DNA of 56,874 bases from an uncultured Acetatifactor sp. (GTDB lineage Bacteria > Bacillota > Clostridia > Lachnospirales > Lachnospiraceae). The notes under the pieces are model-generated. The model was not told where the DNA came from and ran no database searches. It saw only the letters and a program-made list of their open reading frames with translations. The position numbers and the translations under genes are program-made. The stretch covers positions 1 through 56,874 of the forward strand of contig CANQBS010000008.1 in NCBI GenBank assembly GCA_947589075.1. The letters are read 5' to 3'. Position 1 is the first letter of the stretch. The number at the start of each line of letters is the position of its first letter. Below are positions 38,324-56,690 of the stretch, in pieces.

Positions 38324-38358
38324 ACCAACTCCCTTCGAAGGAACAATTTGTCGTGCAT

Positions 38359-39462: not shown

Positions 39463-39611
39463 TATATTTCTCCTGTCACGCCTACAGATACAATGTTCCT
39501 GCTTTTCATTTCTATCACCTGTATATTCCTTCAATAATTTTACTACCTTATTCTGTCAGTAATCAGACCGCTTCCATCTTGCATACTGATACAACACATA
39601 CTTGAAACAGG

Positions 39612-40685: not shown

Positions 40686-40696
40686 AACCATTTCTC

Positions 40697-41899: not shown

Positions 41900-42046
41900 A
41901 TGTTTTTTCTTCTCCTGATACACAGTACCAAATATAATTCTCCGCTTTTATTGTTTCTGCGCAGGTAAAAGGAACCTTCTCATTTGGAAGTTCAAGCTCA
42001 ACTGCCCGAATAATCCGACTTTCGTGTCCATACTTTTTTCACCTTT
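41886..42046 (-). pseudogene. Possible decayed gene remnant
   Basis: One minus-strand frame reads without stop from about 42046 to 41886 and looks coding (HESRIIRAVELELPNEKV, then CAETIKAENYIWYCVSGE, ending ENFDD). It has no start codon, and a stop lies just before it; an adjacent frame upstream also looks protein-like (LDTGIRYEKGEKSMD). This suggests the 3' end of a frameshifted gene overlapping the GT4 start. No family was recognised. Confidence 0.35.
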
Positions 42047-42103: not shown

Positions 42104-42994
42104 TTAATTAGGATGCACTTCTTTAACTTCGCCGAGAAATTCAATGTTATAATATTGCCTATCCTCTGAGCTAAGAGAGGCATACCAAGTATTAAAATTC
42201 CCGTTGAACCATGGCATATAATTACTAAAATGATGACGCCAAGGATATACCGATTCATTTGTTACTCGGTTTTTAATGTTCCGTACATCATTAATCTGCT
42301 TTGCCGGCGTCCCGGCAACAACAGTAAAGGGTTTGACCGACTTTGTAACAACTGCACCAGCAGCTACCAAGGAATCCTGACCTATTTCTAATCCAGGCAT
42401 AATAGTAGCCGCAGTTGCAATGACAGAAAACGCTTTAACATGCACTCCAGCAAAATTTTCTGATGGCGGTGTTGGATCATTTGTAAGAACAACATAAGGA
42501 TAAATCCATACAAAGCTCTCGATTTCGGATAGCTGACCAATATGAACATTGCTATGCAAACGAACATAATCACTTATTTTGCAATTCCCCTGGATATCGG
42601 AAAGCGTTCCGATACTCACGTGACTACCTATGTGCGTCTTTTCTCTTATCGTTACATGATGTCCAGTATGAACGTCATTCCCAATATCGGATCCGGTATA
42701 GATAATGGATCCGCTACGAATCAACGCTCCTTTTCCTATGTGCAAAGAATGTTCATGACGTTGTCTATCAACACAAAAATCCATCCAATATTCGCCGACA
42801 ATACAATTAGAACCAATAAATGAGTTTGCACCTATGCTTGTATTACTACGTATTATCGAATTACTATCAATATAGGTTCCTTCTCCTATTTCAACATCAT
42901 CTTCTATAATACAATTATGACCCAATGAAACATTTTCTCCCAAATGCACATTATTGCCAATATAGCAATTCTGCCCTTTATAAAATGTACCCAT
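42104..42994 (-). CDS. Left-handed beta-helix acyltransferase (sugar N-acetyltransferase-like)
   Basis: A 296-residue hexapeptide-repeat protein. About 25 turns of the type IGNNVHLGENVSLGHNC form a beta-helix from 8 to 225; GAVVTKSVKPFTVVAGTPAKQI is the usual helix end. A C-terminal extension (SVYPWRHHFSNYMPWFNGN) follows. Next to an FdtA-like isomerase and an FdtB-like aminotransferase it is the expected N-acetyltransferase for a dTDP-3-amino-3,6-dideoxyhexose (FdtC/QdtC role). AGGAGG lies 7 bases before the ATG. Confidence 0.78.
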   Translation of the reverse strand: MGTFYKGQNCYIGNNVHLGENVSLGHNCIIEDDVEIGEGTYIDSNSIIRSNTSIGANSFIGSNCIVGEYWMDFCVDRQRHEHSLHIGKGALIRSGSIIYTGSDIGNDVHTGHHVTIREKTHIGSHVSIGTLSDIQGNCKISDYVRLHSNVHIGQLSEIESFVWIYPYVVLTNDPTPPSENFAGVHVKAFSVIATAATIMPGLEIGQDSLVAAGAVVTKSVKPFTVVAGTPAKQINDVRNIKNRVTNESVYPWRHHFSNYMPWFNGNFNTWYASLSSEDRQYYNIEFLGEVKEVHPN

Positions 42995-43024: not shown

Positions 43025-43633
43025 TTAGGCGTTTTGCAAACGCTTAAATTGTTTTTCAAAAGAGGAAAGACATTCTTCTTCAACTGTACTATGGTATTCA
43101 GCGTTGCCGAACGTACTCTCCTTTCTCGCTGACTTCCACAGTTTGCTGATACCATAGATAAGAATTGATTTGAAGGGTATTGTACCCCCCCCCCCGATGA
43201 TTTCTTTCAAATCATCGGCATTAACCGTCTTATATCCATTTTTTTCGTAAAAACGAATCGCTCGGTAGTTTTCTGGGCTAACACACCAATAAACGGCTTT
43301 CAATTTTAAATCTTCTAATCCTATTCTAATCATCTCCGTCATTGCAAGCTTTGCATATCCCTTACCCATCGCAGCTTTTCGGACAACAATTGCAAATTCT
43401 GCTGCCTGATTTCTAATATTCTTTAATGAAACCGTACCCATGTATGTATCAGTATCATCAACAATTGCCAAATGCATATTTTCCCTCATATCAGAAGATC
43501 TTTCAATAAATGTATAACAATCATCAATAGTTTTAGAGGCAAAATCTGCCTGAAGTTTTCCTGATACAGATTCATCGTGCATCCATTCAAGCATGAGAGA
43601 TGCATCTTTTTTCTCCAATTTCCTAAGTTTCAT
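43025..43633 (-). CDS. GNAT acetyltransferase with poly-G tract
   Basis: A 202-residue protein. Residues 1-145 form a GNAT domain (LRKLEKKDASLMLEWMHD, acetyl-CoA loop VVRKAAMGKGYAKLAM, and WCVSPENYRAIRFYEKNGY). Right after the fold, ATC-G11-TACA encodes IGGGGT. The present G11 is in frame with a 55-residue basic/acidic tail. G10 would give a different tail of similar length, and G12 a shorter one, so slippage would swap C-termini rather than abolish the enzyme. It starts 5 bases after the aminotransferase stop. It may acylate the same amino sugar as the beta-helix enzyme. Confidence 0.82.
   Translation of the reverse strand: MKLRKLEKKDASLMLEWMHDESVSGKLQADFASKTIDDCYTFIERSSDMRENMHLAIVDDTDTYMGTVSLKNIRNQAAEFAIVVRKAAMGKGYAKLAMTEMIRIGLEDLKLKAVYWCVSPENYRAIRFYEKNGYKTVNADDLKEIIGGGGTIPFKSILIYGISKLWKSARKESTFGNAEYHSTVEEECLSSFEKQFKRLQNA
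43185..43195 (-). repeat. Poly-G(11) tract in the GNAT gene
   Basis: Eleven consecutive C on the plus strand (G on the coding strand). This length is prone to slipped-strand mispairing. The present length keeps the annotated C-terminus. Confidence 0.9.
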
Positions 43634-43638
43634 TGTAT

Positions 43639-44739
43639 TTACCTGCCGAATTCATTTATCGTCTCTATAACATACTCTACCTGGCTGTCCGTCATTCCGT
43701 AATACATCGGCAGGCTTAATTCCGTCCTGCTGATTTCCTCCGCTATGGGATATTTTCCTTCAAAATAACCTTTAAATGCTTTCTGCCTATGTATCGGAAT
43801 GGGATAATGCTTATTGGTATGAATTCCCCTCTCCAGCAAATACCTTTCCAGTTCATCTCGATTTTCCGTTCTGACCGCAAACACATGCCAGACAGGGTCT
43901 GCATATTCAGGAACTGCTGGCAATATAATACCAGGATTCCTAATCTCCGAAAGATAGCGCTTAGCCACCTGCTTTCTAAACATATTTGTTTTCTCCAACA
44001 GCGGCAGCTTTTCGTTTAAAAAGGCTGCCTGGATTTCATCCAGCCGACTGTTGTATCCCTGGTATATATGATGATATTTATAATCGGAACCGTAATTTCC
44101 CAGGGCTCTGACTTTATCCGCCGTCGTCCGGGAATTAGTTGCCACAGCGCCCGCATCTCCAAGGGCTCCCAGATTTTTCCCTGGATAAAAGCTAAATCCT
44201 GCCGCATTTCCAAAGGTTCCCACCTTTTTTCCTCTATACTTCGCCCCGTGCGCCTGTGCACAATCCTCTACAATCATCAGCTTATATTTCTTTGCAAGCT
44301 GTGTTATTTTATCCATGTCACAGGGCTGTCCGTAGAGATGAACCGGCATAATCGCTTTCGTTTTATCTGTAATGGCTTTTTCCATTTCCACAGGATCAAT
44401 ATTAAAGGTTTCAAGTTTCGGTTCAGCCAAAACCACCTTTGCGCCAAGATAAACAACTGCTAAAGCAGTAGCTATATAAGTATTGGAGGGAACTATGACT
44501 TCATCCCCGCTTTCAATCCCTAACGCCTTCAGCGACAACATCAGTGCGTCCAGACCATTCCCGCATCCAACACAGAATCTTACGCCTAAATATTCCGCAA
44601 ATGCATCCTCAAAGGCCTTATCCTCATCTCCGCCAATATACCAGCTCTTATTTAATACCCTTTCAAAAATCTCCGTCAGGTTCAGCTCGTTCTCTAACGG
44701 TTTAAATGAAACGAATGGAATATCCATGTGTCCTGTCAT
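43639..44739 (-). CDS. fdtB: DegT/DnrJ/EryC1-family sugar aminotransferase (FdtB/QdtB-like)
   Basis: A 366-residue PLP aminotransferase: [81 protein letters not shown], and the PLP-lysine segment [17 protein letters not shown]. With the 3,4-ketoisomerase directly upstream it should convert dTDP-3-keto-6-deoxyhexose to the 3-amino sugar. Its ATG is two bases after the fdtA stop, and its ribosome site (AGAGGAA) lies in the end of fdtA, so the two are coupled. Fuc3N versus Qui3N cannot be decided from sequence alone. Confidence 0.88.
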
Positions 44740-44741
44740 AG

Positions 44742-45158
44742 TTATTCATTTCCTCTCTTTACAAAAGCAAGAAATTCATTGTAATCCCTGATATAGTCCG
44801 ACTCATCATATATATCCGACGCCAGCACCATAAGCACCGTACCGCTGGAAAAGTCATACATCTCTCTCCATACATTATTCGCAATGTATAAACCTTCATC
44901 TGGCCGATTCAAATTCACAATTATCTTTTTTGTTCCGTCGTCTAATAGGACTTTACAGCTTCCCGAAACGCAGATTAAAATCTGCTGCAAATTTTTATGT
45001 GCATGTCTGCCCCTTCGGGCGCCAAATGCCGTATCATACATATAATAAACTCTCTTAATGTCAAAAGGGACACTTATCATTCCTTCCAAGGCTATCAATT
45101 GTCCCCTGTCATCCCCATGAGGATTAAACTGATACATTTTTATTCCAGATATATCCAT
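44742..45158 (-). CDS. fdtA: FdtA/QdtA-type dTDP-keto-sugar 3,4-ketoisomerase
   Basis: A 138-residue cupin of the WxcM/FdtA family. Motifs are [11 protein letters not shown], the metal/active-site segment [18 protein letters not shown], and the beta-barrel end [30 protein letters not shown]. It isomerises dTDP-4-keto-6-deoxyglucose to the 3-keto form for the next-door aminotransferase. GAGGAAGG precedes the ATG. The rmlA/rmlB genes that make its substrate are not in the window. A decayed second copy of its middle part lies at 49471-49599. Confidence 0.9.
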
Positions 45159-45188
45159 TATTTTCCTTCCTCGTATCTCAATCTATTA

Positions 45189-45586
45189 TCATTCAGCCGC
45201 CATAGATAAATCGATCATAATTCTTTCATAACTATCCTTAGCCCGCTTCTGAATGTCTTTGTAATAATCCAGATTCCCTGCACATTCATCCTGCAGGTAT
45301 GACTTTAAATCATTCGTCATGTACCGTTTTCCTGCTATCTTGGTTAATTCAATCCGAATCTTATTCATGAGTTTAAAAAGAGTATATTTCCTAATTCTCT
45401 TATTTTCATACCTATATTTCAAATCTGACAAATGTGCTCTCCGATAAACTTGCAAAATAATATTCTTACATTCTTTTAAATAATGTTATTCAGAGCTGCA
45501 GTATCTTTATCCCATTTTTCATTAATTCTTTCAGAGCTGCTTACAGAAGATTCATGCACCCTATAGAATACGCATATTTTATTCAT
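45189..45586 (-). pseudogene. Decayed 3' end of a GT2 glycosyltransferase gene
   Basis: From ATG 45586 one frame reads MNKICVFYRVHESSVSSSE and on to LNNII-stop; after a one-base shift near 45480 a second frame continues LKECKNIILQVYRRAHLSDL and runs 88 residues to DLSMAAE. The YRVHESSVSSS text is the typical end of a GT2 catalytic domain, so the pieces look like one C-terminal remnant broken by a single-base indel with the N-terminal domain lost. Its ATG overlaps the HAD gene stop. The second frame alone could be called an 88-residue hypothetical protein (45189-45455). Confidence 0.6.
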
Positions 45587-46256
45587 AAAAATAGCAATTC
45601 CGTTTCTTAAAAGCATTCAATTTACCTTGATGAATTTCATAGCACGCTCTTTCAAACGCTTTAGGTCCTGATACAAGAATACCGTCTCCACCTAAATCTA
45701 TTAATGGTTTTATATCAATGGCATATCGATCTCCTATAGAAAGTACCTCTCCTGCGTTCAAGTCATATTGATTCAAAATTTCTCGTATTACATCCTTTTT
45801 ATTAAAGGATCCTTCTCCAGGATGCTTTGTTACACAAAAAATATCATAAAAAATATCTATATCTATATCAAGCCATTTCAATGTTATTAATATATTATTA
45901 TATGTGTTAGTGGAAAGCAAAACAACCCTATAGGATTTAGCCAAATCTAAAAGAACTTCTTTATGAACAGCATGTTCTTTTTTTATCATATTAGGATGAT
46001 AATTAAATTCTCTATATGCCCTCCACTTTTCAACATTCAAACCTGATTTTAAAAAAAATTCTGTAGCGGATTTCGCTTTTACCGATTTATATGGAAAAAT
46101 TCCATTTTGATAGAAAATAGAAGCGGTTTCCTCTTTGCTAATTCCTCTTTCTTTTGAAAAAAAATTAATTTGCATCTTATAAACATCCTTTAAGATGTCA
46201 TCTATATCATATAACGTACCATCAAAGTCTATTATTATAAGTTTATAAGTCTTCAT
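45579..46256 (-). CDS. HAD-family phosphatase
   Basis: A 225-residue HAD hydrolase with motif I DFDGTLYD (nucleophile Asp), motif II VVLLSTNTYNN, a Lys in the KKDVI segment and motif IV LSIGDRYAIDI. The alpha-helical cap lies between motifs I and II. It follows the split cytidylyltransferase-kinase and may dephosphorylate or proofread a sugar- or polyol-phosphate of that pathway. The ribosome site is weak. Confidence 0.8.
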   Translation of the reverse strand: MKTYKLIIIDFDGTLYDIDDILKDVYKMQINFFSKERGISKEETASIFYQNGIFPYKSVKAKSATEFFLKSGLNVEKWRAYREFNYHPNMIKKEHAVHKEVLLDLAKSYRVVLLSTNTYNNILITLKWLDIDIDIFYDIFCVTKHPGEGSFNKKDVIREILNQYDLNAGEVLSIGDRYAIDIKPLIDLGGDGILVSGPKAFERACYEIHQGKLNAFKKRNCYFYE

Positions 46257-46340
46257 ATCATATTACCCAGCACATTGATCAGAATTCTTACTCTATTTCT
46301 TGAGATATTATTGATTAATCCAGATAATTACACAATGATA

Positions 46341-47099
46341 CTATACATTTTTTTGCAAAAATAATGTGTAATAATCTTTATCATCCATACATGCTTTTCC
46401 ATCAAAAAAAATATTTTGAATCATTTTTATCGCCCAAGAGGCTCTTTGAAAATTATCTTGTCTTGAAAAAACATATTCATTCATTTTATGCACCCAAGTT
46501 ATAAAAGAAGCAACACATAACATTCTTTTATCGCAATACTTTTCAAAATACTGGAACAATTCAATATATTTTTTCAACTGATTTTTTGTTTCCAATCTTG
46601 TCTCAACTACCAAAGCTATCGTATATTCAAATTCTTTTGGTGCAATTACACCTAATGGATCAATAGCAGTCAATTGATTTTTATCTGAAAGTATATTCCT
46701 CCGATGCAAATCCCTATGCAAAAAATATTTTTTCTCCAAAGCAAAATATTTATTCCATAAATTAACTGCCACTAATGTCATATCTTTTCGAAATTTTGCT
46801 TCAAAAGCATATTTCTCCGAAAGGTCCGCACTTTTATAAAACTCGTCCATAAATGTAGGAATTTTTAAAGAAGGATCCATTCTCTCCACGTCAATAAGAT
46901 TCCTGTTAAAATCATCAAATAAATCGGCTAATCTTGGATCTCCAATATCAAACTTTGTCTGAATTCCTGGAACTATCCTTTTTACTAACAAAACGCTATA
47001 TTGTGCATCATAATCCAATAGTCTAGCCATATGCATATTCGCACCAGATAATTGGTAATATGCCAGTTCATAAGCGAATCTACCCCCCCCCGGGTGCAT
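46341..47099 (-). CDS. APH/choline-kinase-fold kinase half, out of frame with its N-terminus
   Basis: A 252-residue frame beginning MHPGGGRFAYELAYYQ, inside the N-lobe of an aminoglycoside-phosphotransferase-fold kinase. The catalytic loop HRDLHRRNILSDKNQ and the metal motif AIDPLG are intact. The missing first strands of the N-lobe (FATCVFEATSEKYGDVIIKFHAP) are encoded in the upstream frame, across the G9 tract. With G8 or G11 the two frames join into one 544-residue protein (47976 to 46341). The isolated half lacks the ATP-clamping strand and is unlikely to be active. The substrate is probably a polyol, sugar or amino alcohol. Confidence 0.75.
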   Translation of the reverse strand: MHPGGGRFAYELAYYQLSGANMHMARLLDYDAQYSVLLVKRIVPGIQTKFDIGDPRLADLFDDFNRNLIDVERMDPSLKIPTFMDEFYKSADLSEKYAFEAKFRKDMTLVAVNLWNKYFALEKKYFLHRDLHRRNILSDKNQLTAIDPLGVIAPKEFEYTIALVVETRLETKNQLKKYIELFQYFEKYCDKRMLCVASFITWVHKMNEYVFSRQDNFQRASWAIKMIQNIFFDGKACMDDKDYYTLFLQKNV

Positions 47100-47976
47100 G
47101 AAATTTTATAATAACATCTCCATATTTTTCTGAAGTTGCCTCAAATACGCAGGTGGCAAAAGTCAATGGATTCATTTTGTATGAAGTAATATCCCACATA
47201 TTAATGACTTCATTTAAATACTTAGGTATATTTTGCAGCCACTCCCATATTTTCTGTTCATTATTATAAGATGCCTGCCATTGACTGATATTATATTTTG
47301 TTCTTTCCTGTTCAGGATTTGATATTATTTCATCATACAAGATCTCCGCAATCCTAATATCAAAGGGATAAGTAATCTTCATTGTATATGGATAATCAAA
47401 ACAATAGAACGCCTTGGAACTTGAGGGCATTTGATGGAATATATACGGAACAGGGAAATCCGCCTTATAGTTTTCATACAAGATTTTAAACTTATATGCT
47501 TCTGGTTCCATCACATGAAAATAATCTTCTCTATCAACCAATATTCCATCATATTTTGCCAATGTTGACGTTACTTTCCAAGCAGTTAACACATAATCAT
47601 ATTCATTCAGCAACATAAAATATCTATTGATTTGTTCCTTTGTCATCAAGGGACATACTGCATTTGCAATAATGATATTTTCACATATATAATTTTCCGC
47701 AACATATTTCAAACCATTGGCTAATGATTTCGTTCTATTATCACCACCACAAGTTACTGGGAATCCGTATCTGTCATGAATATATTTTACATAATCCGCT
47801 GCAGCAACAACTACAATTTCGTCAACTTCCGATGCATGTCTGCATGCATCAAAGGCATACTCAATAACCGGCCTGTTCTTCATAAGACAATATTGTTTTG
47901 GTTTATCCGCACCAAATCTACTTCCTATTCCACCAGACATAATAAGTACGATATTTTTAGCATAAATTTTACCCAT
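47080..47976 (-). CDS. IspD/TarI-like cytidylyltransferase half of a kinase fusion, truncated by G9 frameshift
   Basis: A 298-residue product. Residues 1-230 are an IspD/TarI-type nucleotidyltransferase: IVLIMSGGIGSRFGADKPKQY (CTP loop), VVAAADYV, the ANAVCPLMT metal region and YKFKILYENY. From about 262 it enters a kinase N-lobe (FATCVFEATSEKYGDVIIKFHAP) and then stops at GGG-TAG in the poly-G tract. It should activate a phosphorylated alcohol as a CDP derivative, with the fused kinase making that phosphate. The ribosome site before ATG 47976 is weak; a strong AAAGGAG about 47 bases upstream precedes an ATG-TGA. Confidence 0.78.
   Translation of the reverse strand: MGKIYAKNIVLIMSGGIGSRFGADKPKQYCLMKNRPVIEYAFDACRHASEVDEIVVVAAADYVKYIHDRYGFPVTCGGDNRTKSLANGLKYVAENYICENIIIANAVCPLMTKEQINRYFMLLNEYDYVLTAWKVTSTLAKYDGILVDREDYFHVMEPEAYKFKILYENYKADFPVPYIFHQMPSSSKAFYCFDYPYTMKITYPFDIRIAEILYDEIISNPEQERTKYNISQWQASYNNEQKIWEWLQNIPKYLNEVINMWDITSYKMNPLTFATCVFEATSEKYGDVIIKFHAPGGG
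47083..47091 (-). repeat. Poly-G(9) tract splitting the cytidylyltransferase-kinase
   Basis: Nine C on the plus strand, so CACCC-G9-TAG on the coding strand. G9 gives HAPGGG-stop; G8 gives HAPGGGRFAYELAYYQ and full read-through. The tract sits between the lysine strand and the Glu helix of the kinase N-lobe. Confidence 0.92.
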
Positions 47977-48095
47977 AATAGCTCATAACATATGATCTTC
48001 ATTATAATACAAATCACATGTCCTCTCCTTTTTATACTGTAGATCAAATCCTTTCTCAGCTTTTCATATCTGAACATTCAATATTTTATACCTAA

Positions 48096-49208
48096 TCATT
48101 CATTATTATAATCATTTATAATATACCTTACAATATTTTCCCCAATACATAAATCATCTCTTATTCCTATTTTTTTTCTTATTACTTCTTCCCGTACTGC
48201 CCGTAATGGATCAACACCTGCCTTCAATTCTTCAATATAAAATACAACCTGTCCCCAATCATTTGCTATATATACACTTTTCTTCAATTCTTCCATGGGC
48301 AACGCTTCTACATTCCCACAATATATGATAGGTTTCCCGGTTATATAATACTCAATAATCAATGAACTAAAATCCGCGAGCAGTACATCCGCCCTTTCAA
48401 ATCCCGGCAGGTAATCTTTCTGATTATCTAATGCTGCATTGCTCATGCATTTAATACTCTCTTTATATTCATCAACCTCCTCATCACTCATCAAACCATG
48501 AGCAAGATAATTTTGGAAAGCCAACGGATGTGGTCTTATCATCCAAAACTCATCCTTTTTTATTTTACACCGATCTATAATACAGTCTTTAAATTCAAAA
48601 AAAGAAGTCTCTTCACTTGTATCTTTGCTATTTACTCCTGCAACCGTCCAACGTGGTATCCACAAAATTGTAAATTCATCGTATTTTTTCCCGCTTATTG
48701 TATTTGTAAGATCAAATCTAGGGAATCCAAGGTTAACTACCTTCCGATTTTTATATTTATTTTCCTTAAAATATTCTCTACAGTAGTTTTCAACACCCTC
48801 CCAACTTGCAAAAAAAATAGACATATTCCTCAAAAAATCTGGCGGAAGAACTATGTTTAATAAATCCTCGGATTTAGTTAATATATAACCATAGGGAATA
48901 TAAATAACCTTTGCATATTCAACAGTCTGGTCGCTTCTGTAAGTATAAGGCAAGCAATTTCCGTATGGCCGCTCATATATTATATAGTCCGGTTTATACC
49001 TTTTTAAATCAAACCACGTCTTCGTCTCTTCGTCATAAGCTTTACATACATTAGAATAATTTTTCGTATAAAAATTAATATCACTATATGTCCAACTCAC
49101 ACATTTAGAATTCACCTTTACCGGCAAAATCAATAAAAGCGCCCTAATTTGCGGATTCTGTAAAGCTGCTTCATACACTGTTCGCATAGAATTCCAAAGT
49201 TCTGGCAT
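48096..49208 (-). CDS. CDP-glycerol glycerophosphotransferase (TagB/TagF)-like protein
   Basis: A 370-residue peripheral membrane transferase. Motifs are VIYIPYGYILTKSED, FRPDFLTN-type text (LGFPRFDLTN), MIRPHPLAF (the conserved RPHP) and the CDP-alcohol site ADVLLADFSSLIIEYYITGKPIIY. It should transfer an alcohol phosphate from a CDP-activated donor to the glycan, fitting the cytidylyltransferase encoded next. The ATG at 49208 has no ribosome site and lies within a conserved strand (IKIVFFAQMPELW); the true protein probably starts at 49396, beyond a one-base frameshift (next entry). Confidence 0.78.
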   Translation of the reverse strand: MPELWNSMRTVYEAALQNPQIRALLLILPVKVNSKCVSWTYSDINFYTKNYSNVCKAYDEETKTWFDLKRYKPDYIIYERPYGNCLPYTYRSDQTVEYAKVIYIPYGYILTKSEDLLNIVLPPDFLRNMSIFFASWEGVENYCREYFKENKYKNRKVVNLGFPRFDLTNTISGKKYDEFTILWIPRWTVAGVNSKDTSEETSFFEFKDCIIDRCKIKKDEFWMIRPHPLAFQNYLAHGLMSDEEVDEYKESIKCMSNAALDNQKDYLPGFERADVLLADFSSLIIEYYITGKPIIYCGNVEALPMEELKKSVYIANDWGQVVFYIEELKAGVDPLRAVREEVIRKKIGIRDDLCIGENIVRYIINDYNNE

Positions 49209-49396
49209 TTGAGCAAAAAAAACAATCTTTATTTCTTTTTTATTATCAAACCGCTTTTTTAATTCTATTTTTTTATGATAATAGTTAAAACGGCATCCCC
49301 AAAAATAAGCTTTTATCTTTATCCAGATTCCTCTAGCCTTTTTCCAAATTTTATTTGGTATGATTTTTTTAAATAAAATTTTATCTGTGCCATCAT
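49209..49396 (-). pseudogene. Frameshifted 5' end of the TagB/TagF-like gene
   Basis: Open coding sequence continues upstream of 49208 in frame (KKIIPNKIWKKARGIW, then IKAYFWGCRFNYYHKKIE, then FDNKKEIKIVFFAQ) but has no start codon. Just before it, ATG ATG at 49396 follows GGAAGGAAG by 10 bases and encodes MMAQIKFYLKK in another frame that soon stops. The two join if the A7 run (T7 on the plus strand, 49364-49370) had eight bases. The restored protein would be about 433 residues. Confidence 0.65.
49364..49370 (-). repeat. A7 tract at the TagF-like frameshift
   Basis: Seven A on the coding strand at the exact join of the two frames. A7 to A8 restores the reading frame by DNA or transcriptional slippage. 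A sequencing or assembly error is also possible. Confidence 0.6.
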
Positions 49397-49470
49397 TTTT
49401 ATTTTACTTCCTTCCAACCTTTATAGTTTATAGATATATGGGCTTACCTATACACACCTGAAAGCTTTGT

Positions 49471-49599
49471 TTCATCGTGTAATAGAATTTTACGGCTTTC
49501 CGAAACGCAGATTAAGATCTGCTGCAGATTTTTATGCGCATGTCTCCCCTTTCGGCGCCAAATGCAGTACCATACATATAATAAACTCTCTTAATGTCA
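49471..49599 (-). pseudogene. Decayed partial copy of fdtA
   Basis: About 130 bases match the middle of fdtA (44930-45062) closely: [14 protein letters not shown] and the CSR/LQQ region can be read, but one base is missing in the stretch before the conserved HAHK and in-frame stops follow. It lies between the CDP-glucose dehydratase gene and the TagF-like gene, about 4.5 kb from the intact copy. No start or end is preserved. Confidence 0.75.
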
Positions 49600-49641
49600 T
49601 AATCAGATATCAAAGCACGTTTTAATACAGCACTGTTTTTA

Positions 49642-50757
49642 TCAGGCACCATTATCCGGACACTCTTCCTTTACCGGGACTAGACTATTTCCATTCATAT
49701 ATTCTTCAATTTCACGAGACATTTCAGATGCCAGATCACCATTTTTCATCCAAACTTTAAAATAATTTACAGTCTCTTCTACAGCTTTATCTATGTGCCA
49801 GTGTAATCTCCAGCCAAACACATTTTTTATTTTACTTGTGTCAAGCTTTAAAAACATCGACTCATGCGGTGAGTTAGTCTCTGCTATACTCTTCCATGAT
49901 GCATTAGTAGAAGAATTATTTTCGTTCCATTTAGTACAAAATAAATCTACCAGTTCACCTGTAGTAATGCAATCTGCATCATCCGGTCCCACATTATAAG
50001 CCCCAGACAAAGAAATATCTTTATATTGTTCCATAGCAATATATAAATATATAAAAACAGGTTCTAATACATGCTGATACGGTCTAACAGAATGAGGATT
50101 TCTAACAAGAATCGGGCTATTACTTTTTATCGCTCTAATACAATCAGGTATAATACGATCTTTAGCAAAATCACCGCCTCCAATAACATTTCCGGCTCTG
50201 ACTGTTGAAATTGCGATTTCCCTATTCTCAAAAAAAGACTTTTTATAACTGCTGGTTACCAATTCTGAACAAGATTTTGAATTAGAATATGGATCATATC
50301 CATTCAATTCATCATTTTCACGATATCCCCACATCCATTCCTTATTTAAATAAACTTTGTCCGTTGTAACATTTATAAATGATTTTACAGATGTACTCAT
50401 TCTGATACATTCAAGTACGTTTACCGTTCCCAGAACATTTACTTCATAAGTATACACCGGGTTTTTATAAGAATCTCTAACGAGAGGCTGTGCCGCCATA
50501 TGAATTACTATTTCCGGCTGAACCTCAATAAAAACAGCCTTCAGATGCTCTAAATCACGAACATCACCATATACAGAACGAATGCTTTCTATATGACACA
50601 TTCCGTAAAAATCAGGATCCGATATGGCACTCAAAGCATAGCCCGTCACTTTTGCGCCTGCTTTAGCAAGTACCTTACACATCCACATTCCTTTAAACCC
50701 TGTATGCCCTGTTATAAGAACCTTCTTACCACGGTAAAACTCTAATATTTCGTTCAT
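49642..50757 (-). CDS. rfbG: CDP-glucose 4,6-dehydratase
   Basis: A 371-residue extended SDR. Motifs are VLITGHTGFKGMWMCKVL (NAD loop and the family-specific FKG), HMAAQPLVRDSY, NVTTDKVY (TDKVY for the SDR Thr), the catalytic Tyr-Lys in YDPYSNSKSCSE, and RAGNVIGGGDFAKDRIIPD. It makes CDP-4-keto-6-deoxyglucose, entry point to 3,6-dideoxyhexoses and other CDP sugars. The usual partners, glucose-1-phosphate cytidylyltransferase (rfbF) and rfbH, are not in the window, so the product is uncertain. GGAGG lies about 11 bases before the ATG. Confidence 0.92.
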   Translation of the reverse strand: MNEILEFYRGKKVLITGHTGFKGMWMCKVLAKAGAKVTGYALSAISDPDFYGMCHIESIRSVYGDVRDLEHLKAVFIEVQPEIVIHMAAQPLVRDSYKNPVYTYEVNVLGTVNVLECIRMSTSVKSFINVTTDKVYLNKEWMWGYRENDELNGYDPYSNSKSCSELVTSSYKKSFFENREIAISTVRAGNVIGGGDFAKDRIIPDCIRAIKSNSPILVRNPHSVRPYQHVLEPVFIYLYIAMEQYKDISLSGAYNVGPDDADCITTGELVDLFCTKWNENNSSTNASWKSIAETNSPHESMFLKLDTSKIKNVFGWRLHWHIDKAVEETVNYFKVWMKNGDLASEMSREIEEYMNGNSLVPVKEECPDNGA

Positions 50758-50857
50758 TCAATAAACATCCTCCGGCTTATTTAGCAGACTATAGATCCCC
50801 TTTTCACCGTTTCCCATATTCTTCTATCATTTCATCTAAGATCAGCATGATGCCATT

Positions 50858-51883
50858 TTATATTCCTATCTCGCTCCTAAACTTTAAAGCTCTCTCTCTT
50901 ATCATTAAAAGGTGCTCGTTTTCCGCCTCCGCCATACGTTTCATATTATCCACATAACTCTCCCAGTCCGCAGACTTCAACGCATATTTTTCCCTCCGTC
51001 GGAACAAATAATTATCAACTTTCCAATACCACGCTGACTTCATTCCAAACCTATGCTTCATTCGGAACGTAACTAATACAGATAAAAAGAGAAAACATTT
51101 AACAAATATATTCTTTTCTTTCAACATCACATATTTACGAAACTTATGAAGATCATCCAGGAACCTGATCTGACTTGTCGTATCAACGCTTCCTTGGCTC
51201 AAACTTTTAGAATGCTTTCTATATAATATCATTGGATCCGAGCATATTTTTAAAACCATATCCTCATTATTTTTTAAGATATAATAGTATGATGGATCAT
51301 CTTCAAACATTGTAAAATGTTCTACAAATTCAAAACAACCATCCGAATAATATTTTCTTCTTATACATATTTCAGGCGAAGGGAACGGTTTTCTCGCCTC
51401 TATAAGCCACAGATCCTTCTTATGGATATGTTTATGTCGTTCATAGAAAAACATATTGCAAAGATCACGATCCGTAACGTACGTACCTTCCTCTGTGAAA
51501 TGTATTGGGAAAAAGAACGTCATACACTCTGGATCTGCCTTTTCAATCTGATCAAATATATTGTGGGAAGAAATTATATCATCTCCAGAAAACATTTTAA
51601 AATATTCCGTATGGATATGTTTCATAAGAGCTACAAAATTATGAGAAATACCTCTATTCACATCACTTATTATTAATTGACAGCCTCCTGCAAACAGGTC
51701 TTTATACCTGTCAAACCATTTTTGAACCAATTCCGTTGTATGATCTGTGGATGCATCGTCAGATATCGCCAAATAAACTTTATGCCCCTCCCCATAATTT
51801 TCAATTTGATACCTTATACTCTCCAAAGCATCTAAAATATAATCTTCTGCATTATAAGTACATATTCCGAACGAAACGTCCAT
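50858..51883 (-). CDS. Glycosyltransferase family 2
   Basis: A 341-residue GT-A enzyme. The N-terminal VSFGICTYNAEDYILDALESI and the ISDDASTDHTTELV segment form the nucleotide site. FKMFSGDDIISS holds a DxD-like GDD. The acceptor side ends in MILYRKHSKSLSQGS. The start is ATG 51883 with GGAG 8 bases upstream; an alternative ATG (51901) overlaps the SGNH gene stop (ATGA). It probably adds a sugar of the repeat unit. Confidence 0.88.
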   Translation of the reverse strand: MDVSFGICTYNAEDYILDALESIRYQIENYGEGHKVYLAISDDASTDHTTELVQKWFDRYKDLFAGGCQLIISDVNRGISHNFVALMKHIHTEYFKMFSGDDIISSHNIFDQIEKADPECMTFFFPIHFTEEGTYVTDRDLCNMFFYERHKHIHKKDLWLIEARKPFPSPEICIRRKYYSDGCFEFVEHFTMFEDDPSYYYILKNNEDMVLKICSDPMILYRKHSKSLSQGSVDTTSQIRFLDDLHKFRKYVMLKEKNIFVKCFLFLSVLVTFRMKHRFGMKSAWYWKVDNYLFRRREKYALKSADWESYVDNMKRMAEAENEHLLMIRERALKFRSEIGI

Positions 51884-51897
51884 ACATTTTTCTCCAT

Positions 51898-52971
51898 TCA
51901 TTTTATCAATGTTGTCCTGGAAGATGCCCATTCGTTAGCTGACAAATAAAAATCAGCGTCATAAGCTTCATTATCAAATACTTTTTTCAGTTCCTTGCAT
52001 ACAAAATAAGAAAACTTTCTTGCACCGGAATCATTCATATGACCAGCATCCATAAAGTCATAAGCGTCGTCCTTTACATTTGAATACTCTTTGCAAAGCA
52101 TCATATTTAAATATTCTAGGTCGTATCTTTCTGCAAATTCTATATAAAAATCTCTGCATTCCTGAACCCTATTTAGAGCCAAGCCATTGTCTATTCCTGG
52201 ATATGTCATTAAAATTAATTGACAATTATTTTTTTTACATAAGTCTACTATTTTTTCAAAATATAATAAACTTTTATCGCATAATTCCGTTTCAGAAGTT
52301 AATACGCTTTCATCATATTTTATAATTGTTTTATCTATCAATTCACCATTACAGGTATCATCATTAATATATCCTTTTCCTTTATACTTCCCATATGGTA
52401 AATTCTTAATAATATTAATCCAATCCCCCGAAAGAATTCTATTTTTTGCAAATCCAAATGTAAAATTACTTCTATAATGGGATACTGAGAAAAAAGCCCT
52501 AAAATAATTATCAATAGAAAAAGCATTCTTAAAATATTCCCAATAAGTAGAACCGGTTTTCTTTAATGCATCTGATATCTGACAGTTTCCTGCTGCCATT
52601 CCCGCTACATCCCGTTCAAACCCCAACAATGTATTTTCCTGCATTTCAAGAACAACGTATTTTGATTCATGATAATTAAAATATTCCTTAAGAAGGTAAT
52701 ATCCTCCCAGCAACCCTTGACCAGATGATGTCAAATCAAAAGCCGTCATAGAGAGATTGTCCTCCACGACCTCCGGGCAAACTGAAGTATACGTTTTTGA
52801 TGAACCTAAAAATACGATATCACTATTTTCACCCGTATATACCTCATGTAACATAAGTTTCGTATAAGCAGCATAATCCGGTATCTCTACAATATAAAAT
52901 CCGCCATAAAGAATAATTCCCAATATTATTATAGCCGCAGCTGTTAATATATTTCGATTAAAAATTCGCAT
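51898..52971 (-). CDS. Membrane-anchored SGNH-hydrolase-like protein (DltD/AlgJ-like role)
   Basis: A 357-residue protein with an N-terminal membrane anchor (about 5-27) and an extracytoplasmic SGNH-like domain. Block I is FLGSSKTYTSV (Ser in GSS), block III-like text is LEMQENTLL, and block V is DFMDAGHMNDSGARKF (Asp and His). Directly downstream of an MBOAT gene it matches the DltD or AlgJ/AlgX partner that moves an acyl group onto an extracellular glycan. The start is ATG 52971 after GGGGA, overlapping the MBOAT stop by 14 bases; earlier ATGs exist at 52992 and 53004. Confidence 0.75.
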   Translation of the reverse strand: MRIFNRNILTAAAIIILGIILYGGFYIVEIPDYAAYTKLMLHEVYTGENSDIVFLGSSKTYTSVCPEVVEDNLSMTAFDLTSSGQGLLGGYYLLKEYFNYHESKYVVLEMQENTLLGFERDVAGMAAGNCQISDALKKTGSTYWEYFKNAFSIDNYFRAFFSVSHYRSNFTFGFAKNRILSGDWINIIKNLPYGKYKGKGYINDDTCNGELIDKTIIKYDESVLTSETELCDKSLLYFEKIVDLCKKNNCQLILMTYPGIDNGLALNRVQECRDFYIEFAERYDLEYLNMMLCKEYSNVKDDAYDFMDAGHMNDSGARKFSYFVCKELKKVFDNEAYDADFYLSANEWASSRTTLIK

Positions 52972-54433
52972 ATATAAATCCCCGTACTTCATTCCCTGAA
53001 TCATAAGACAATACCAACCAAGTAAAAATCAATACCAACCAAAAGGCAATGACTGTTATAGGTTTGGCCTCACTGATACGCGCTCTTATGCTTTTCTTTC
53101 TCTGAAGCAGCTCAACAAAAAAGAGCGAAGCTACACTGTATGCCAATACCGCACAATCCATATCTCCCCAGAAAACTTTTATGTTTGCAATTAATCCTAC
53201 GCTCTTATTGTTTGCCGCAAATATTGCGCCAATCATTTTGGGGAAATCTGACAGATTATTTACCCTGATCAGCATCCAGCCAATTGCCATCAAAAATAAG
53301 GTTCTTAAGATTCTTACAAAATGAATGATCTTTTCTTGGATGCCCTCTTCCTTCTCTTTATTTTTCCTGAAATTGTCAATGGAAATCAATATACCCATGT
53401 ATGCGCCAAAAACTACATATTTCCACCCAGCCCCGTGCCATATCCCATTTACAATCCAAACGACAAACGTGACAGCACTGGTTGTTACTGTTTTCGCCAC
53501 CATGACCCCGTATTTGCTTTTGAGTTTACCGTATATTTTATTATTTAATCTCGACATGGCAAGGGGCATATATATATAATCCTTAAACCAATTGCCCAAA
53601 GAAATATGCCAACGGCGCCAAAATTCACTCACAGACTCCGAAAAATAAGGTTGTCTGAAATTCTCTGGCAAGTCAATGCCCAACATCTTCCCATATCCAA
53701 TAATAATATCAATACCTCCGGAAAAATCACAATAAAGCTGTATCATATAACCTATGACTGCAATCGGAATAATGAGTCCTGAATAAGTCTCATAATCATT
53801 GAACACACCATTCACCAGAGGACATACTCTATCTGCTATTACCAGCTTTTTAATCCCCCCCCCGAGTGCCAAAATGAGACCAGAAACAACATTGTTAATG
53901 TTAAAACAGTTATCTCTGTATAAAGACGTCCGAAGCTTTTTATACCGCACAATTGGTCCCTGTGTCATAATAGGGAAAAAGCACAACAACAAACTAAATT
54001 TGCAAATATTGCCTTCAGCTTCGCCTCCTTTGTAAACATCCACAATGTACCCTATTCCCGACAATGTATAAAAAGATATTGCCAAAGGGAACATTGTATT
54101 AGGTACAAATTTATAGAACAAAAGCAATCCCAAATTTACACCAATTATTATCAACAATATAATTCTGCTTTTTCTCTTATATTTTTTTCTCTCCGGCGCA
54201 CCCTTTTTTAAAATTTTAATATTACGATTGGTTTTATCTAGGTACAAGCTTCCAAGCCATAGAGTCGCAGCCGAAATAACCATAGGACCAATATGCCAAT
54301 TTGACACATAGCCATAATAAAAATAACTTGCTATACAAAGGACTATCCATTTATGCTTAGGAATTATATAATATAGAACTATTACCAGGGTTGCAAATAT
54401 AACAAAAGAAAAACTTGTAATCGATAAACTCAT
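52958..54433 (-). CDS. MBOAT O-acyltransferase (DltB-like) with poly-G tract
   Basis: A 491-residue multispan enzyme with about 11 helices. MBOAT signatures are QGPIVRYKKL, LYCDFSGGIDIIIGYGKMLGI, ENFRQPYFSESVSEFWRRWHISLG, and the catalytic-His segment VNGIWHGAGWKY. The poly-G tract encodes the GGG of LGGGIKKLVIADR, where related proteins read GLFKKVVIAD. G9 is in frame; G8 or G10 gives a stop within nine codons. It should take acyl groups from the carrier protein and pass them outward to the SGNH partner. The start is ATG 54433. Confidence 0.88.
   Translation of the reverse strand: MSLSITSFSFVIFATLVIVLYYIIPKHKWIVLCIASYFYYGYVSNWHIGPMVISAATLWLGSLYLDKTNRNIKILKKGAPERKKYKRKSRIILLIIIGVNLGLLLFYKFVPNTMFPLAISFYTLSGIGYIVDVYKGGEAEGNICKFSLLLCFFPIMTQGPIVRYKKLRTSLYRDNCFNINNVVSGLILALGGGIKKLVIADRVCPLVNGVFNDYETYSGLIIPIAVIGYMIQLYCDFSGGIDIIIGYGKMLGIDLPENFRQPYFSESVSEFWRRWHISLGNWFKDYIYMPLAMSRLNNKIYGKLKSKYGVMVAKTVTTSAVTFVVWIVNGIWHGAGWKYVVFGAYMGILISIDNFRKNKEKEEGIQEKIIHFVRILRTLFLMAIGWMLIRVNNLSDFPKMIGAIFAANNKSVGLIANIKVFWGDMDCAVLAYSVASLFFVELLQRKKSIRARISEAKPITVIAFWLVLIFTWLVLSYDSGNEVRGFIYANF
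53855..53863 (-). repeat. Poly-G(9) tract in the MBOAT gene
   Basis: Nine C on the plus strand, G on the coding strand, between CTC and ATTAAA. The present length is in frame (predicted ON). Confidence 0.92.
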
Positions 54434-54465
54434 ATTCTTCCAACAATCCTTCAGAAAATTCTCGA

Positions 54466-54693
54466 TTATTTCATTTGATATTCTTGAATCAGAGCCCAAA
54501 TTGCGCCAACCGAGTTAAAATTCTTTGCCTCTAAGTCTTCCGGATCCAGTTCAATTTCAAATACATTATTAATTTCCATAATAATAGAAATAATATCCAT
54601 AGAGTCCAATACTTCCCCATCAATTAAGTTAATCTCATTTTGGAAATCAACATCTGGTCTTGCTTCTTCTAAAATCTTCATTAATTGTTCCAT
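54466..54693 (-). CDS. Acyl/aminoacyl carrier protein (DltC-like)
   Basis: A 75-residue carrier protein, the usual size. The phosphopantetheine serine is in DGEVLDSMDIISII. Helix 3 and the end (FEIELDPEDLEAKNFNSVG AIWALIQ) match acyl and D-alanyl carriers. The start is ATG 54693 after AAGGAG. Placed between the GNAT gene and the MBOAT, it should be loaded by the AMP ligase at the start of the operon. Confidence 0.88.
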   Translation of the reverse strand: MEQLMKILEEARPDVDFQNEINLIDGEVLDSMDIISIIMEINNVFEIELDPEDLEAKNFNSVGAIWALIQEYQMK

Positions 54694-54715
54694 TTTTTTC
54701 TCTCCTTGTTGTTTT

Positions 54716-55150
54716 TTAGTAAGGTTTTCCATTAATCCACATTCCCATTCCTGAACCATTTATAAGATTCGGATACCTTTTGAAACCAAGGGTTTTATAA
54801 AAAGGTTCAACATCAGACGTAACTGCAAGTAATACTATTTGCATCAAATAATCACATCTGTCTTTATAATGGCTAATCACTTTCTCCATCATGGTCTTGC
54901 CGATATTATTGCCTCTAAATTTGCTGTGCACGACGACATCATAAACATAAGTCATATATACATCGTCACTTAGGCAACGTGCCATCCCTATAATTTGATC
55001 CTGTTTACGAACAGTAATACTATAATTACAAGCGTCTATCGACTTCCTTATTTGTTCATCCGGAATGGGCTTCCACCCAGCATCCGTCCTTAATATTTTA
55101 TACTCTTCGACAGAAAGATCGTTTTCCCCATATGTCAGTCCATCAATCAT
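54716..55150 (-). CDS. GNAT N-acetyltransferase in the Dlt-like cassette
   Basis: A 144-residue GNAT protein: SITVRKQDQIIGMARCL, YVYDVVVHSKFRGNNIGKTMMEKVI (acetyl-CoA loop RGNNIG) and PFYKTLGFKRYPN at the end. It overlaps the AMP-ligase gene by 8 bases, so it is coupled to it. Canonical dlt operons lack such an enzyme; it may N-acylate the amino acid or acceptor before or after transfer. The substrate cannot be read from sequence. Confidence 0.85.
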   Translation of the reverse strand: MIDGLTYGENDLSVEEYKILRTDAGWKPIPDEQIRKSIDACNYSITVRKQDQIIGMARCLSDDVYMTYVYDVVVHSKFRGNNIGKTMMEKVISHYKDRCDYLMQIVLLAVTSDVEPFYKTLGFKRYPNLINGSGMGMWINGKPY

Positions 55151-56690
55151 TTCCCTTTAAATAGCTCTCCTTTAAAAGTTTTCGATTTATTTTCCCATTT
55201 GCATTTAATGGTATTTGATTTCTATAAATAATGATATTGGGAATCATATATTTAGGCAATTTCTTTTCCAGCTCCTTCAAAATTGCGGCAATCGCTATTT
55301 CTTCTTCCCCATCAACCGTTGTGTATATTGCAACAATCTTATCCTTTTCATCATCTAAAAAGCAACATACTCTATCAATTCCTGCGATTGCATTAAAAGA
55401 ACTTTCAATTTCACCCAATTCAATTCTGTAACCCATGTGCTTAATTTGGGCATCTTTTCTACCCACATAAATAATCTCATTTCTTTCATTCACTCTGACA
55501 AGATCACCACTTCTATATAACAATTCAGGATATTTTGTATTTAAAGGATTCTGAATATATGCTTCATTTGTTTTTTTAGCATCTCCAAAATATCCCATTC
55601 CAAGAAAAGTTCCTCTAAAAAACAACTCGCCAACTTCTCCATCCTGCACTTCTTTCAAATCATCGTTCAAAATCAGCACACCTACATTGGCACATGGACT
55701 TCCAATCGGAACAGGTTCATCATCTCTAAGTTCTCGGTTAACGATATAATAAGTTCCTATATCCGTTATCTCTGTTGGTCCAAAAAGATTGGCATATAAA
55801 GAATCTGGCATTTTACTTATCCAGTAATTAAGCTGTTTTGTCGGCATCACTTCACCTGCAAACAGTATTTTATTGACATAATCTAATGGGCACTTATCCA
55901 ACACACGAAATTTCGAAATCAAACACAATGCTGAGGGTACCCAATATAAAGTGTTCACTCTATTATCGTTCAGATAATTAATCAGTTTTACCGGCTGCAT
56001 AAATAACGGTTTAGGAATGATTATCAAAGATCCAGCACACCTCAAAATAGAATACAAATCGAGAATTGACATACTAAAATATAATGGGGTTTGATTTCCT
56101 AAAACAGTTGTCCTGTTAAACCCAAATGTCTCAACCACCCATTGTGAATAACTAAGTACAGACCTATGATTACAGATTACTCCTTTAGGCGTTCCTGTTG
56201 AACCTGATGTAAATAAGGTATACAAAGGATCTGTATCTATTATCCGGGCTTTAACAGAATCTATCATTCCCTCATCAATTACATCTGTTTTAAGTTCATC
56301 AAATACATATATCTTAGTACAATCCCCACCCACCATTTGGGCCTTTTCCAGCATTTCTAAATCACACAACAGAGTCTCTGACTCTAACGCGTCTAATATT
56401 GTACGCATTCTTTCAACTGGCATCTTTTCGTCAATCGGCACATAAAAATTACCCGTATATGCTACTGCCCAGAAAACGCATATCTCATTTACGGATTTCT
56501 TCATCAACACTGGGATCGGACTATTTGAATTAGCCGTACAAATTCGTTGTTCAAGAAAAGTTGTTGCCAGACCCTGAACTTTATCTGCCACCTCTTTCCA
56601 CGTATAAGAAGTGTTCTTATCAGCCAATGCCAACCCAGTTGGATTATTATTTCTATTATCTGTCACAAATTCCAGAACATTATTTACCAT
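55143..56690 (-). CDS. AMP-dependent amino-acid ligase (DltA-like)
   Basis: A 515-residue adenylating enzyme that should activate an amino or carboxylic acid and load the downstream carrier protein. ANL motifs are YTLFTSGSTGTPKGVICNH (P-loop), LYFSMSILDLY, LFGPTEITDIGTYY, LYRSGDLVRV and the C-terminal NANGKINRKLL with the catalytic Lys. The size and closeness to a DltC-like protein suggest a DltA relative, but D-alanine specificity is not established. GAGGA lies 10 bases before the ATG, and the operon promoter lies about 67 bases upstream. Confidence 0.87.
   Translation of the reverse strand: MVNNVLEFVTDNRNNNPTGLALADKNTSYTWKEVADKVQGLATTFLEQRICTANSNSPIPVLMKKSVNEICVFWAVAYTGNFYVPIDEKMPVERMRTILDALESETLLCDLEMLEKAQMVGGDCTKIYVFDELKTDVIDEGMIDSVKARIIDTDPLYTLFTSGSTGTPKGVICNHRSVLSYSQWVVETFGFNRTTVLGNQTPLYFSMSILDLYSILRCAGSLIIIPKPLFMQPVKLINYLNDNRVNTLYWVPSALCLISKFRVLDKCPLDYVNKILFAGEVMPTKQLNYWISKMPDSLYANLFGPTEITDIGTYYIVNRELRDDEPVPIGSPCANVGVLILNDDLKEVQDGEVGELFFRGTFLGMGYFGDAKKTNEAYIQNPLNTKYPELLYRSGDLVRVNERNEIIYVGRKDAQIKHMGYRIELGEIESSFNAIAGIDRVCCFLDDEKDKIVAIYTTVDGEEEIAIAAILKELEKKLPKYMIPNIIIYRNQIPLNANGKINRKLLKESYLKGND

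Follow-up and report, generated by a model that had tools for sequence, protein, structure and literature searches.

Many poly-G loci of Campylobacter, Neisseria and Helicobacter are intragenic tracts of G8 or longer in glycan enzymes. In Campylobacter jejuni, Neisseria and Helicobacter, each genome is reported to hold several surface-structure genes that are switched when the length of a repeat tract changes (PMC6321876, PMC8437040). In Helicobacter canadensis, a late poly-G tract is reported to alter the C-terminus while expression is kept, with ranges of tract length found in reads (PMC2823697). Two other reports concern the Bifidobacterium breve pilus switch, in which a length change in an intragenic G tract joins two ORFs, as followed by deep sequencing and in mice (PMC9187656), and the pneumococcal capsule acetyltransferase gene wciG, in which frameshifts are tied to the coat variant of serotype 33H (PMC11934437). 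No report of poly-G contingency loci in Lachnospiraceae was found among the listed titles and abstract beginnings of a mostly open literature. To our knowledge, the coat variation of gut Firmicutes has mostly been sought as invertible DNA.

The window analyzed here, the whole stretch of 56,874 nucleotides from a likely relative of the gut bacterium Acetatifactor, invites comparison with these systems. Like the Campylobacter, Neisseria and Helicobacter loci, it presents several repeat tracts in predicted surface-structure genes of one genome. Unlike them, it belongs to a Gram-positive Lachnospiraceae host known here from sequence alone; among its tract genes, a bifunctional cytidylyltransferase-kinase is split and a sugar GNAT has three open frames. 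The late tract of the GNAT gene, which changes the C-terminus, recalls H. canadensis, but here one GNAT family extends over many metagenomic contigs and its shifted tails are longer than those of tract-less relatives. In the B. breve switch, too, a gut commensal carries the G tract inside a gene and several combinations are possible, whereas that switch concerns pili rather than glycans, in another phylum. As in wciG, a predicted coat acetyltransferase gene of a Gram-positive is frameshifted, although the gene and lineage are different. Slippage in three poly-G tracts probably shifts the frame of each of three predicted glycan-modification genes, so that the enzymes would switch separately and produce several coat forms. 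Slippage phase variation is the best explanation of the tracts, and GNAT is its best supported site.

All three tracts lie inside minus-strand genes and read as G in the coding direction:

43185..43195, minus strand: G11 tract in the GNAT gene (C11 on the plus strand)
47083..47091, minus strand: G9 tract at the domain junction of the cytidylyltransferase-kinase (C9 on the plus strand)
53855..53863, minus strand: G9 tract in the MBOAT gene, in frame (C9 on the plus strand)

A run-length count over the window confirms the sites, lengths and strand that the first-pass annotation had given for these tracts, and also its claim that the longest other G/C run is seven. The C11 and the two C9 are the only G/C runs of at least nine, the next longest is a C7 at 5831-5837, and on the plus strand of the whole window all G runs are shorter than 6. 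After training on the window minus the tracts, Markov models of order 1, 3 and 5 (100 simulations each) predict 0.69, 0.10 and 0.06 runs of at least nine, where three are observed. Features of homopolymer contingency are present: the tracts are longer and commoner than chance, a length change shifts a gene's frame at all three, and the out-of-frame sequence past the tract is intact. With tract lengths as given in the assemblies, the present frames leave the GNAT with a non-canonical tail, divide the cytidylyltransferase-kinase in two and keep the MBOAT intact.

The same annotation had confined the tracts to one locus, which does not hold for the 3.15 Mb assembly: runs of at least nine Gs occur at 7 sites (3 in the window), exact G8 at 8 and exact G7 at 10. 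Unlike those of chance runs, these counts do not fall with length, which sets the long runs apart as a separate class. At 14 of the 15 sites with at least eight Gs, the run reads as G in the direction of the gene that contains or adjoins it, as judged from the ORFs, and TA directly follows the run at 8 of the 15, compared with 55 of 764 runs of G4-6. Elsewhere in the genome, the family matches at these sites comprise, among others, two family 2 glycosyltransferases, an Acyl_transf_3 protein and a TylF methyltransferase, while three of the 15 sites lie in membrane proteins without a family match and three are unrelated to glycan. A purely glycan tract class was therefore rejected, with exceptions at an MBL-fold gene (contig C75), the 5' side of an ABC transporter gene (contig C72) and an unplaced site (contig C9).

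Two of the tract-bearing genes lie in the following part of the glycan cluster:

37145..41923, minus strand: remaining glycan cluster, with the four genes of the next three lines
37145-38323, minus strand: Wzy-like membrane protein (weak Wzy_C match, below cut-off)
38359-39534 and 40697-41923, minus strand: glycosyltransferases
39612-40691, minus strand: radical SAM protein
42104..42994, minus strand: hexapeptide-repeat acyltransferase (Pfam Hexapep)
43025..43633, minus strand: GNAT N-acetyltransferase, 202 aa at present, with a non-canonical tail after the tract (Pfam Acetyltransf_3)
43639..44739, minus strand: DegT/DnrJ sugar aminotransferase (Pfam PF01041)
44742..45158, minus strand: FdtA-like sugar ketoisomerase (Pfam PF05523)
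45579..46256, minus strand: HAD-family hydrolase (Pfam HAD_2)
46341..47099, minus strand: kinase half, intact, in another frame (49% identity to the second half of P0242)
47080..47976, minus strand: IspD-like cytidylyltransferase half, ending at the tract (Pfam IspD; 72% identity to the first part of P0242)
48096..49208, minus strand: CDP-glycerol glycerophosphotransferase-like protein, a possible user of the CDP product (Pfam Glyphos_transf)
49642..50757, minus strand: CDP-glucose 4,6-dehydratase (TIGR02622, above cut-off)
50858..51931, minus strand: family 2 glycosyltransferase (Pfam PF00535)

From their common strand and close packing, the three tract genes plausibly form one operon; gaps of about 420 and 430 bases are found at 45159-45578 and 49209-49641. 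The DegT/DnrJ enzyme is the likely source of the amino sugar that would serve as the GNAT's acceptor. The GNAT itself was rejected as PseH (TIGR03585, 39.7 bits against a cut-off of 93.1).

The GNAT gene presents the clearest frame differences. P0002, on a separate 2454-base contig, is identical to the window GNAT in its first 149 residues and past residue 149 follows the window DNA in the next frame, bar one Q-to-K change; we infer a tract of G10 there, against G11 in the window. The canonical tail is still encoded in another frame of the window DNA. The proposal of slippage switching is well supported in this case by natural frames that differ, even for the same gene on a second contig. Among the best 120 of 2304 GNAT relatives, 117 are classifiable by tail: the canonical WY tail is present in 77 and absent from 40, and a GG motif marks the junction in 38 of the 40 but only 24 of the 77.

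Tail pairs were compared in 36 proteins chosen by hand from the 117; these belong to groups that share a body (single linkage at 80% identity), and their G-rich junction can be read. P0031, P0051, P0086, P0103, P0105 and canonical-tail-only groups were among those left aside, and pairs were unscored if the tails were alike (50% or more) or under 12 residues. Within groups, where bodies are alike but the paired tails differ, 83 of 100 pairs are compatible with two frames of a single DNA and 17 are not, while between groups 5 of 475 are. The tails of P0013, P0015 and P0038 fit three frames of one sequence.

Past the tract, all three frames are open in the window GNAT, for 28, 55 and 53 codons, and in the L077 GNAT for 16, 38 and 31. 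Shifted tails (n=39, P0001 and P0002 included) span 31-79 residues with a median of 46, significantly longer than the 8 of tract-less controls, in which the junction was approximated as 10 residues before the xWY motif. The gene shows one mark of C-terminal phase variation: a late tract past which every frame is open, so that alternative tails result. As all three frames are open, an ON/OFF description is probably too simple for GNAT, and the frames suggest that its tract acts as a three-state C-terminal selector. In the predicted structure of the window's shifted tail, a strand at 158-163 is still drawn, at low confidence.

A larger reading of this selector is possible, though tentative. Selection would keep the three frames open and so maintain three acetyltransferases with a common catalytic body and a differing C-terminal segment at the site of the last beta-strand. 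Such selectors may be spread in gut Clostridia, hidden in metagenome fragments, and beside the on/off G tracts of the same operon they would make the coat switches a mixture of three-state and two-state. In named genomes, the tract is present at 2 of 77 readable GNAT loci (80 fetched; L092, L096 and L108 are unreadable by tail motif, with no run of 7 or more in any), and of 397 family genomes searched with a strict DNA pattern for GNAT plus tract, only the window's own gave a match. This indicates that the GNAT device is rare in reference genomes. L182, the only tail-readable GNAT locus of the genus search, has no tract.

The cytidylyltransferase-kinase departs from the single tract-bearing gene of the first-pass annotation: an IspD-like cytidylyltransferase and an APH-like kinase do not form one unbroken protein in the window, where the gene is split at the tract into two ORFs, 47080-47976 and 46341-47099. 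A TAG stop directly follows the G9 in the present frame, and the off-frames stop after 0 and 32 codons past the tract. All 119 other relatives (444-619 aa; best 120 of 226) are unbroken through the tract position. The kinase half aligns with P0242 over 243 residues without a gap and retains the HRDLHRRNIL motif. Alone, it has no Pfam match, and PF04655 matched 2 of 4 relatives scanned; tyrosine-kinase matches in a PDB search were weak and rejected as noise. The first domain gave profile matches to ribitol-5-phosphate and MEP cytidylyltransferases. Slippage switching of this gene is supported by its anatomy, split exactly at the tract with the second half intact. No second tract length was seen for it; of cluster P0241 (4 members, 2 contigs), the split representative alone was covered. 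A first scan of the genome collection found no close cytidylyltransferase-kinase relative, and no close cytidylyltransferase relative was found in other congeners (138 genomes including its own; best 35% identity).

The third tract gene and its neighbors are:

51898..53004, minus strand: unassigned downstream neighbor of the MBOAT, placed where a DltD-like partner would be (no Pfam or NCBIfam match)
52958..54499, minus strand: MBOAT acyltransferase, DltB-like (Pfam MBOAT; DltB model 151.5 bits against a cut-off of 375)
54466..54759, minus strand: carrier protein, likely MBOAT partner (Pfam PP-binding)
54716..55150, minus strand: second GNAT, without a long G run (Pfam Acetyltransf_1)
55143..56690, minus strand: adenylation enzyme, DltA/NRPS-like, likely MBOAT partner (TIGR01733 and TIGR01734, NCBIfam, both below cut-off)

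The MBOAT aligns without a break with its relatives, the tract lying opposite LxxWGxxKK-like segments, and in nine close relatives the first tract codon corresponds to a Trp. Its off-frames stop after 1 and 5 codons past the tract, and no second tract length was seen; the MBOAT relatives listed are the best 120 of 7991. The switching proposed for this gene, which is in frame, would follow from those early stops. Membership in DltABCD was rejected, with DltA (TIGR01734) at 285.9 of 559.85, DltB at 151.5 of 375 and DltC at 31 of 68 (NF003464) and 19.2 of 52.35 (TIGR01688). The set may still work like DltABCD despite these scores.

One gene broken at its run and another with a presumed length variant make it likely that the runs are switches. 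Replication slippage would add or remove Gs in a tract and shift, reversibly, the reading frame of the host gene. At the GNAT tract this would pick one of three tails, the canonical one, with the predicted last beta-strand of the fold, or two longer ones, while the cytidylyltransferase-kinase and MBOAT tracts would act as plain on/off truncations. The enzymes are predicted to decorate a surface polysaccharide through amino-sugar N-acetylation, CDP-activated group transfer and Dlt-like acylation; if the three sites act independently, the population would contain several coat forms.

Slippage of RNA polymerase or the ribosome on the G run would also give several products, while the DNA length may stay constant. 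It, too, would need the second half of a split gene to be intact, and open shifted frames are compatible with mixed products. P0002 and the three-frame groups, however, imply DNA-level differences that it does not need, which makes it unlikely; expression slippage may nonetheless act on top of replication slippage. Poly-G is also error-prone in sequencing, and errors of sequencing or assembly could create frame differences in genes that are in fact constant. The G runs at contig ends of several congeners resemble artefacts, and the L075 GNAT contig terminates in a G17 run. Yet the window genes are canonical, shifted or split with the coding sequence past each run intact, GNAT relatives from many contigs display all three frames, and errors leave the excess of long runs and the openness of the shifted tails unaccounted for, so that this explanation is quite improbable.

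Decaying pseudogenes, with the tracts as hotspots of the first break, would account for the split cytidylyltransferase-kinase and the non-canonical GNAT tail. No second lesion was seen, however: the kinase half is gapless over its 243 residues with the HRDLHRRN motif present, the MBOAT alignment is free of breaks, the canonical GNAT tail is encoded in the other frame, and natural GNAT relatives occur in every frame. Decay is thus very unlikely. A reading in which GGG glycine codons came to be strung together by chance, without a role, is hardly credible: the in-frame MBOAT run does read Gly-Gly-Gly and GGG makes up 57 of 306 glycine codons in 15 neighboring tract-free genes, but three runs stand against at most 0.69 expected, counts are steady from G7 to G9 and longer, Trp occupies the first MBOAT tract codon in the nine close relatives, and TA is far more frequent after G8 and longer runs (8/15) than after G4-6 (55/764).

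If G-tract switches are common in gut Firmicutes, each population would combine cells with different coats. Phage attack, recognition by IgA and the tracking of strains would all be affected, and in assemblies from short reads the G-tract genes would be missed or put in the wrong frame. The open shifted GNAT frames also pose the question of whether the tract is selected to choose protein tails rather than to turn the gene off. G9 is absent altogether in 16 of the 36 congeners searched. In congeners, the genes that contain or adjoin a tract belong to the MBOAT, cytidylyltransferase, Acyl_transf_3 (two), hexapeptide, FkbH, glycosyltransferase and glycerophosphotransferase kinds; several tracts of other genomes are at contig ends and resemble sequencing artefacts. 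In the mismatch-repair search, no MutS_I domain was found in the assembly. Only the last third of mutS is present, cut by the end of contig C13, which reflects either an assembly gap or a real loss, and mutL is intact.

The three long G tracts in the window are a true, non-random feature: exactly three G/C runs of at least 9 occur across the whole window, against 0.06–0.69 expected under Markov models, and the next longest run is a C7. All three fall within genes on the minus strand of a predicted glycan cluster at roughly 37–57 kb.

43185–43195, minus (coding) strand: G11 tract (C11 on the plus strand) in the GNAT gene
47083–47091, minus (coding) strand: G9 tract (C9 on the plus strand) in the cytidylyltransferase-kinase
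53855–53863, minus (coding) strand: G9 tract (C9 on the plus strand) in the MBOAT gene

This cluster also encodes glycosyltransferases, a sugar aminotransferase, an FdtA-like isomerase, a CDP-glucose dehydratase, a glycerophosphotransferase-like protein and a hexapeptide acyltransferase, and its MBOAT gene is accompanied by genes for an adenylation enzyme and a carrier protein. Nearby, at 29010–32240, an FKP-like gene fuses fucose-1-phosphate pyrophosphorylase to a GHMP kinase. Phase variation is the best reading of the tracts; it is well supported at the GNAT site, is backed by gene anatomy at the cytidylyltransferase-kinase and is only plausible at the MBOAT. The first-pass annotation had described a switching system confined to this one locus, which is too narrow, as G runs of at least 8 also lie outside the window in the same genome. 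Plain on/off switching is probably the wrong picture for the GNAT, where all three frames are open past the tract.

The host is likely a Lachnospiraceae bacterium close to Acetatifactor: its genus group contains a genome (G062) with a GNAT locus that has DNA in common with the Acetatifactor muris DSM 23669 record, and two more (G099, G101) with DNA in common with Lachnospiraceae records. The 3.15 Mb assembly (163 contigs) contains 10 exact G7 runs, 8 exact G8 runs and 7 sites of at least G9. Within fetched stretches of this genome, which were chosen for the presence of long runs, counts drop from G3 (2277) through G4 (605), G5 (138) and G6 (21) to G7 (2), then climb to 15 at G8 or longer; long runs are therefore a separate class. 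Those outside the window were placed on contigs (C) of the assembly as follows.

C1: tracts of at least G8 in two family 2 glycosyltransferases, one Acyl_transf_3 and one Asn_synthase-like gene
C18: a TylF-like methyltransferase gene
C18: just past the stop of a CpsD-like ATPase (AAA_31)
C7, C27 and C103: three multi-pass membrane proteins without a Pfam match
C75: an MBL-fold gene, an exception to the glycan pattern
C72: the 5' side of an ABC transporter gene, also an exception
C9: a site not placed in a gene, also an exception

Locus L005 (C1:118000–137960) holds four tracts of at least G8 inside about 9.5 kb and forms a second tract-rich glycan cluster. On C103 (L004:2801–4352), the membrane protein gene is broken into two frames at a G9, like the cytidylyltransferase-kinase. 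The mutS gene is truncated by the end of contig C13 (L201), mutL is intact, and a domain search of the assembly returned no MutS_I domain; the missing portion may be an assembly gap or a real loss.

Natural copies of the GNAT occur in different frames. The relative P0002, from another contig, is identical to the window protein over its first 149 residues; beyond the tract it matches window DNA read one frame on, apart from a single residue, and its residues imply G10 versus G11 in the window. Most tract-less relatives end in a WY-motif tail, which the window DNA still encodes outside the current frame. Among the best 120 of 2304 relatives found, this tail is present in 77 of 117 classifiable proteins and absent from 40, and a GG motif marks the junction in 38/40 of those without it versus 24/77 of those with it. 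When proteins with like bodies were grouped (80% identity, single linkage), a single DNA read in two frames could account for both of two differing tails, leaving no more than 10% of residues unsatisfied, in 83/100 within-group pairs versus 5/475 between groups. The tails of three relatives, P0013, P0015 and P0038, are compatible in every pair with zero misfits. P0013 and P0038 align with one and the same body, from which P0015 departs at a few residues; each of the three frames of what is nearly a single gene thus exists naturally. In a Clostridia MAG, the contig carrying the GNAT breaks off within a G17 at the homologous site (L075:3427–3443); a further run, G12, lies at 586–597 of this locus.

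Past the window tract, 28 (canonical frame), 55 and 53 codons are open; past the G11 of an uncultured Dorea locus (L077), the values are 16, 38 and 31. Shifted tails drawn from the same best 120 of 2304 relatives (n = 39, including P0001 and P0002) span 31 to 79 residues with a median of 46, whereas 139 shifted frames of 70 tract-less control genes have a median of 8 and reach 35 codons in 14 cases (Mann-Whitney p = 3e-16; 8e-11 with related proteins collapsed to 22). Ranking bias is an unlikely cause, because shifted forms with unalignable tails are also listed. Structure comparison identifies the window protein as a GNAT with SpeG nearest and PseH at rank 42. Its model has a confident body and a tail of pLDDT below 60 from residue 151, still placing a strand at 158–163 with little confidence; in the canonical tail of the relative P0004, the block scores 77–90 and the terminal β-strand 158–163 averages 92.5. 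The tract may thus select among C-terminal segments, and the tail variants may differ in activity.

The CYTIDYLYLTRANSFERASE-kinase is out of frame at its current G9: the first half ends directly past the tract and the second resumes in a different frame. No break occurs at this point in any of the 119 other relatives compared (444–619 residues; best of 226 found). Compared with the corresponding parts of one relative, P0242, the first half shows 72% identity and the second 49%, the latter ungapped over 243 residues. Matches of the first domain to ribitol-5-phosphate and MEP cytidylyltransferases, and of the second to PF04655 (APH-like kinase family) in 2/4 relatives scanned, point to an enzyme that would phosphorylate and CDP-activate a small alcohol, its product perhaps serving the adjoining glycerophosphotransferase. 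The MBOAT is in frame at its present G9, and its shifted frames close after 1 and 5 codons. Nine close relatives (53–69% identical) show xxWGxxKK at the tract versus LGGGIKK in the window, and no second tract length appeared among the relatives listed.

Campylobacter, Neisseria and Helicobacter are the classical hosts of poly-G contingency loci. The literature search, covering titles and abstract openings, gave no report of such loci in Lachnospiraceae among the matches listed. Late G tracts of Helicobacter canadensis are proposed to switch C-termini, with read-level length ranges (PMC2823697), Bifidobacterium breve pili are switched by a G tract (PMC9187656), and a 2025 review names Clostridioides for invertible promoters, the string "Lachnospir-" being absent from it (PMC11868660).

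Among 36 congeneric genomes besides the window's own, 20 contain a G9 and 16 do not. Nine of the 20 were searched further, yielding 37 places and 30 fetched loci. Pfam scans of genes hand-picked from these loci placed tracts in or beside an MBOAT, a cytidylyltransferase-like gene, two Acyl_transf_3 genes, a hexapeptide protein, an FkbH protein, a glycosyltransferase and a glycerophosphotransferase. The remaining loci either are artefacts at contig ends or hold genes that, by eye, have no glycan role, DNA methyltransferases among them. In L016, L017, L018, L024, L026, L027 and L032, the long G runs lie close to or at the end of a contig; they look like sequencing artefacts and inflate simple tract counts.

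Long runs also share a 3' signature. Across the window, L003–L010 and L012–L041, TA directly follows 8/15 runs of at least G8 versus 55/764 of G4–6 in the window's genome (p = 5e-6), and 9/24 versus 43/821 in congener loci (p = 4e-6). A stop codon lies immediately past the run at 9/41 sites versus 1.9 expected, an arrangement that would give a clean off state. In two congener loci, L037 and L041, genes that by eye resemble DNA methyltransferases contain G9 and G11 tracts and may form a phase-variable methylation system.
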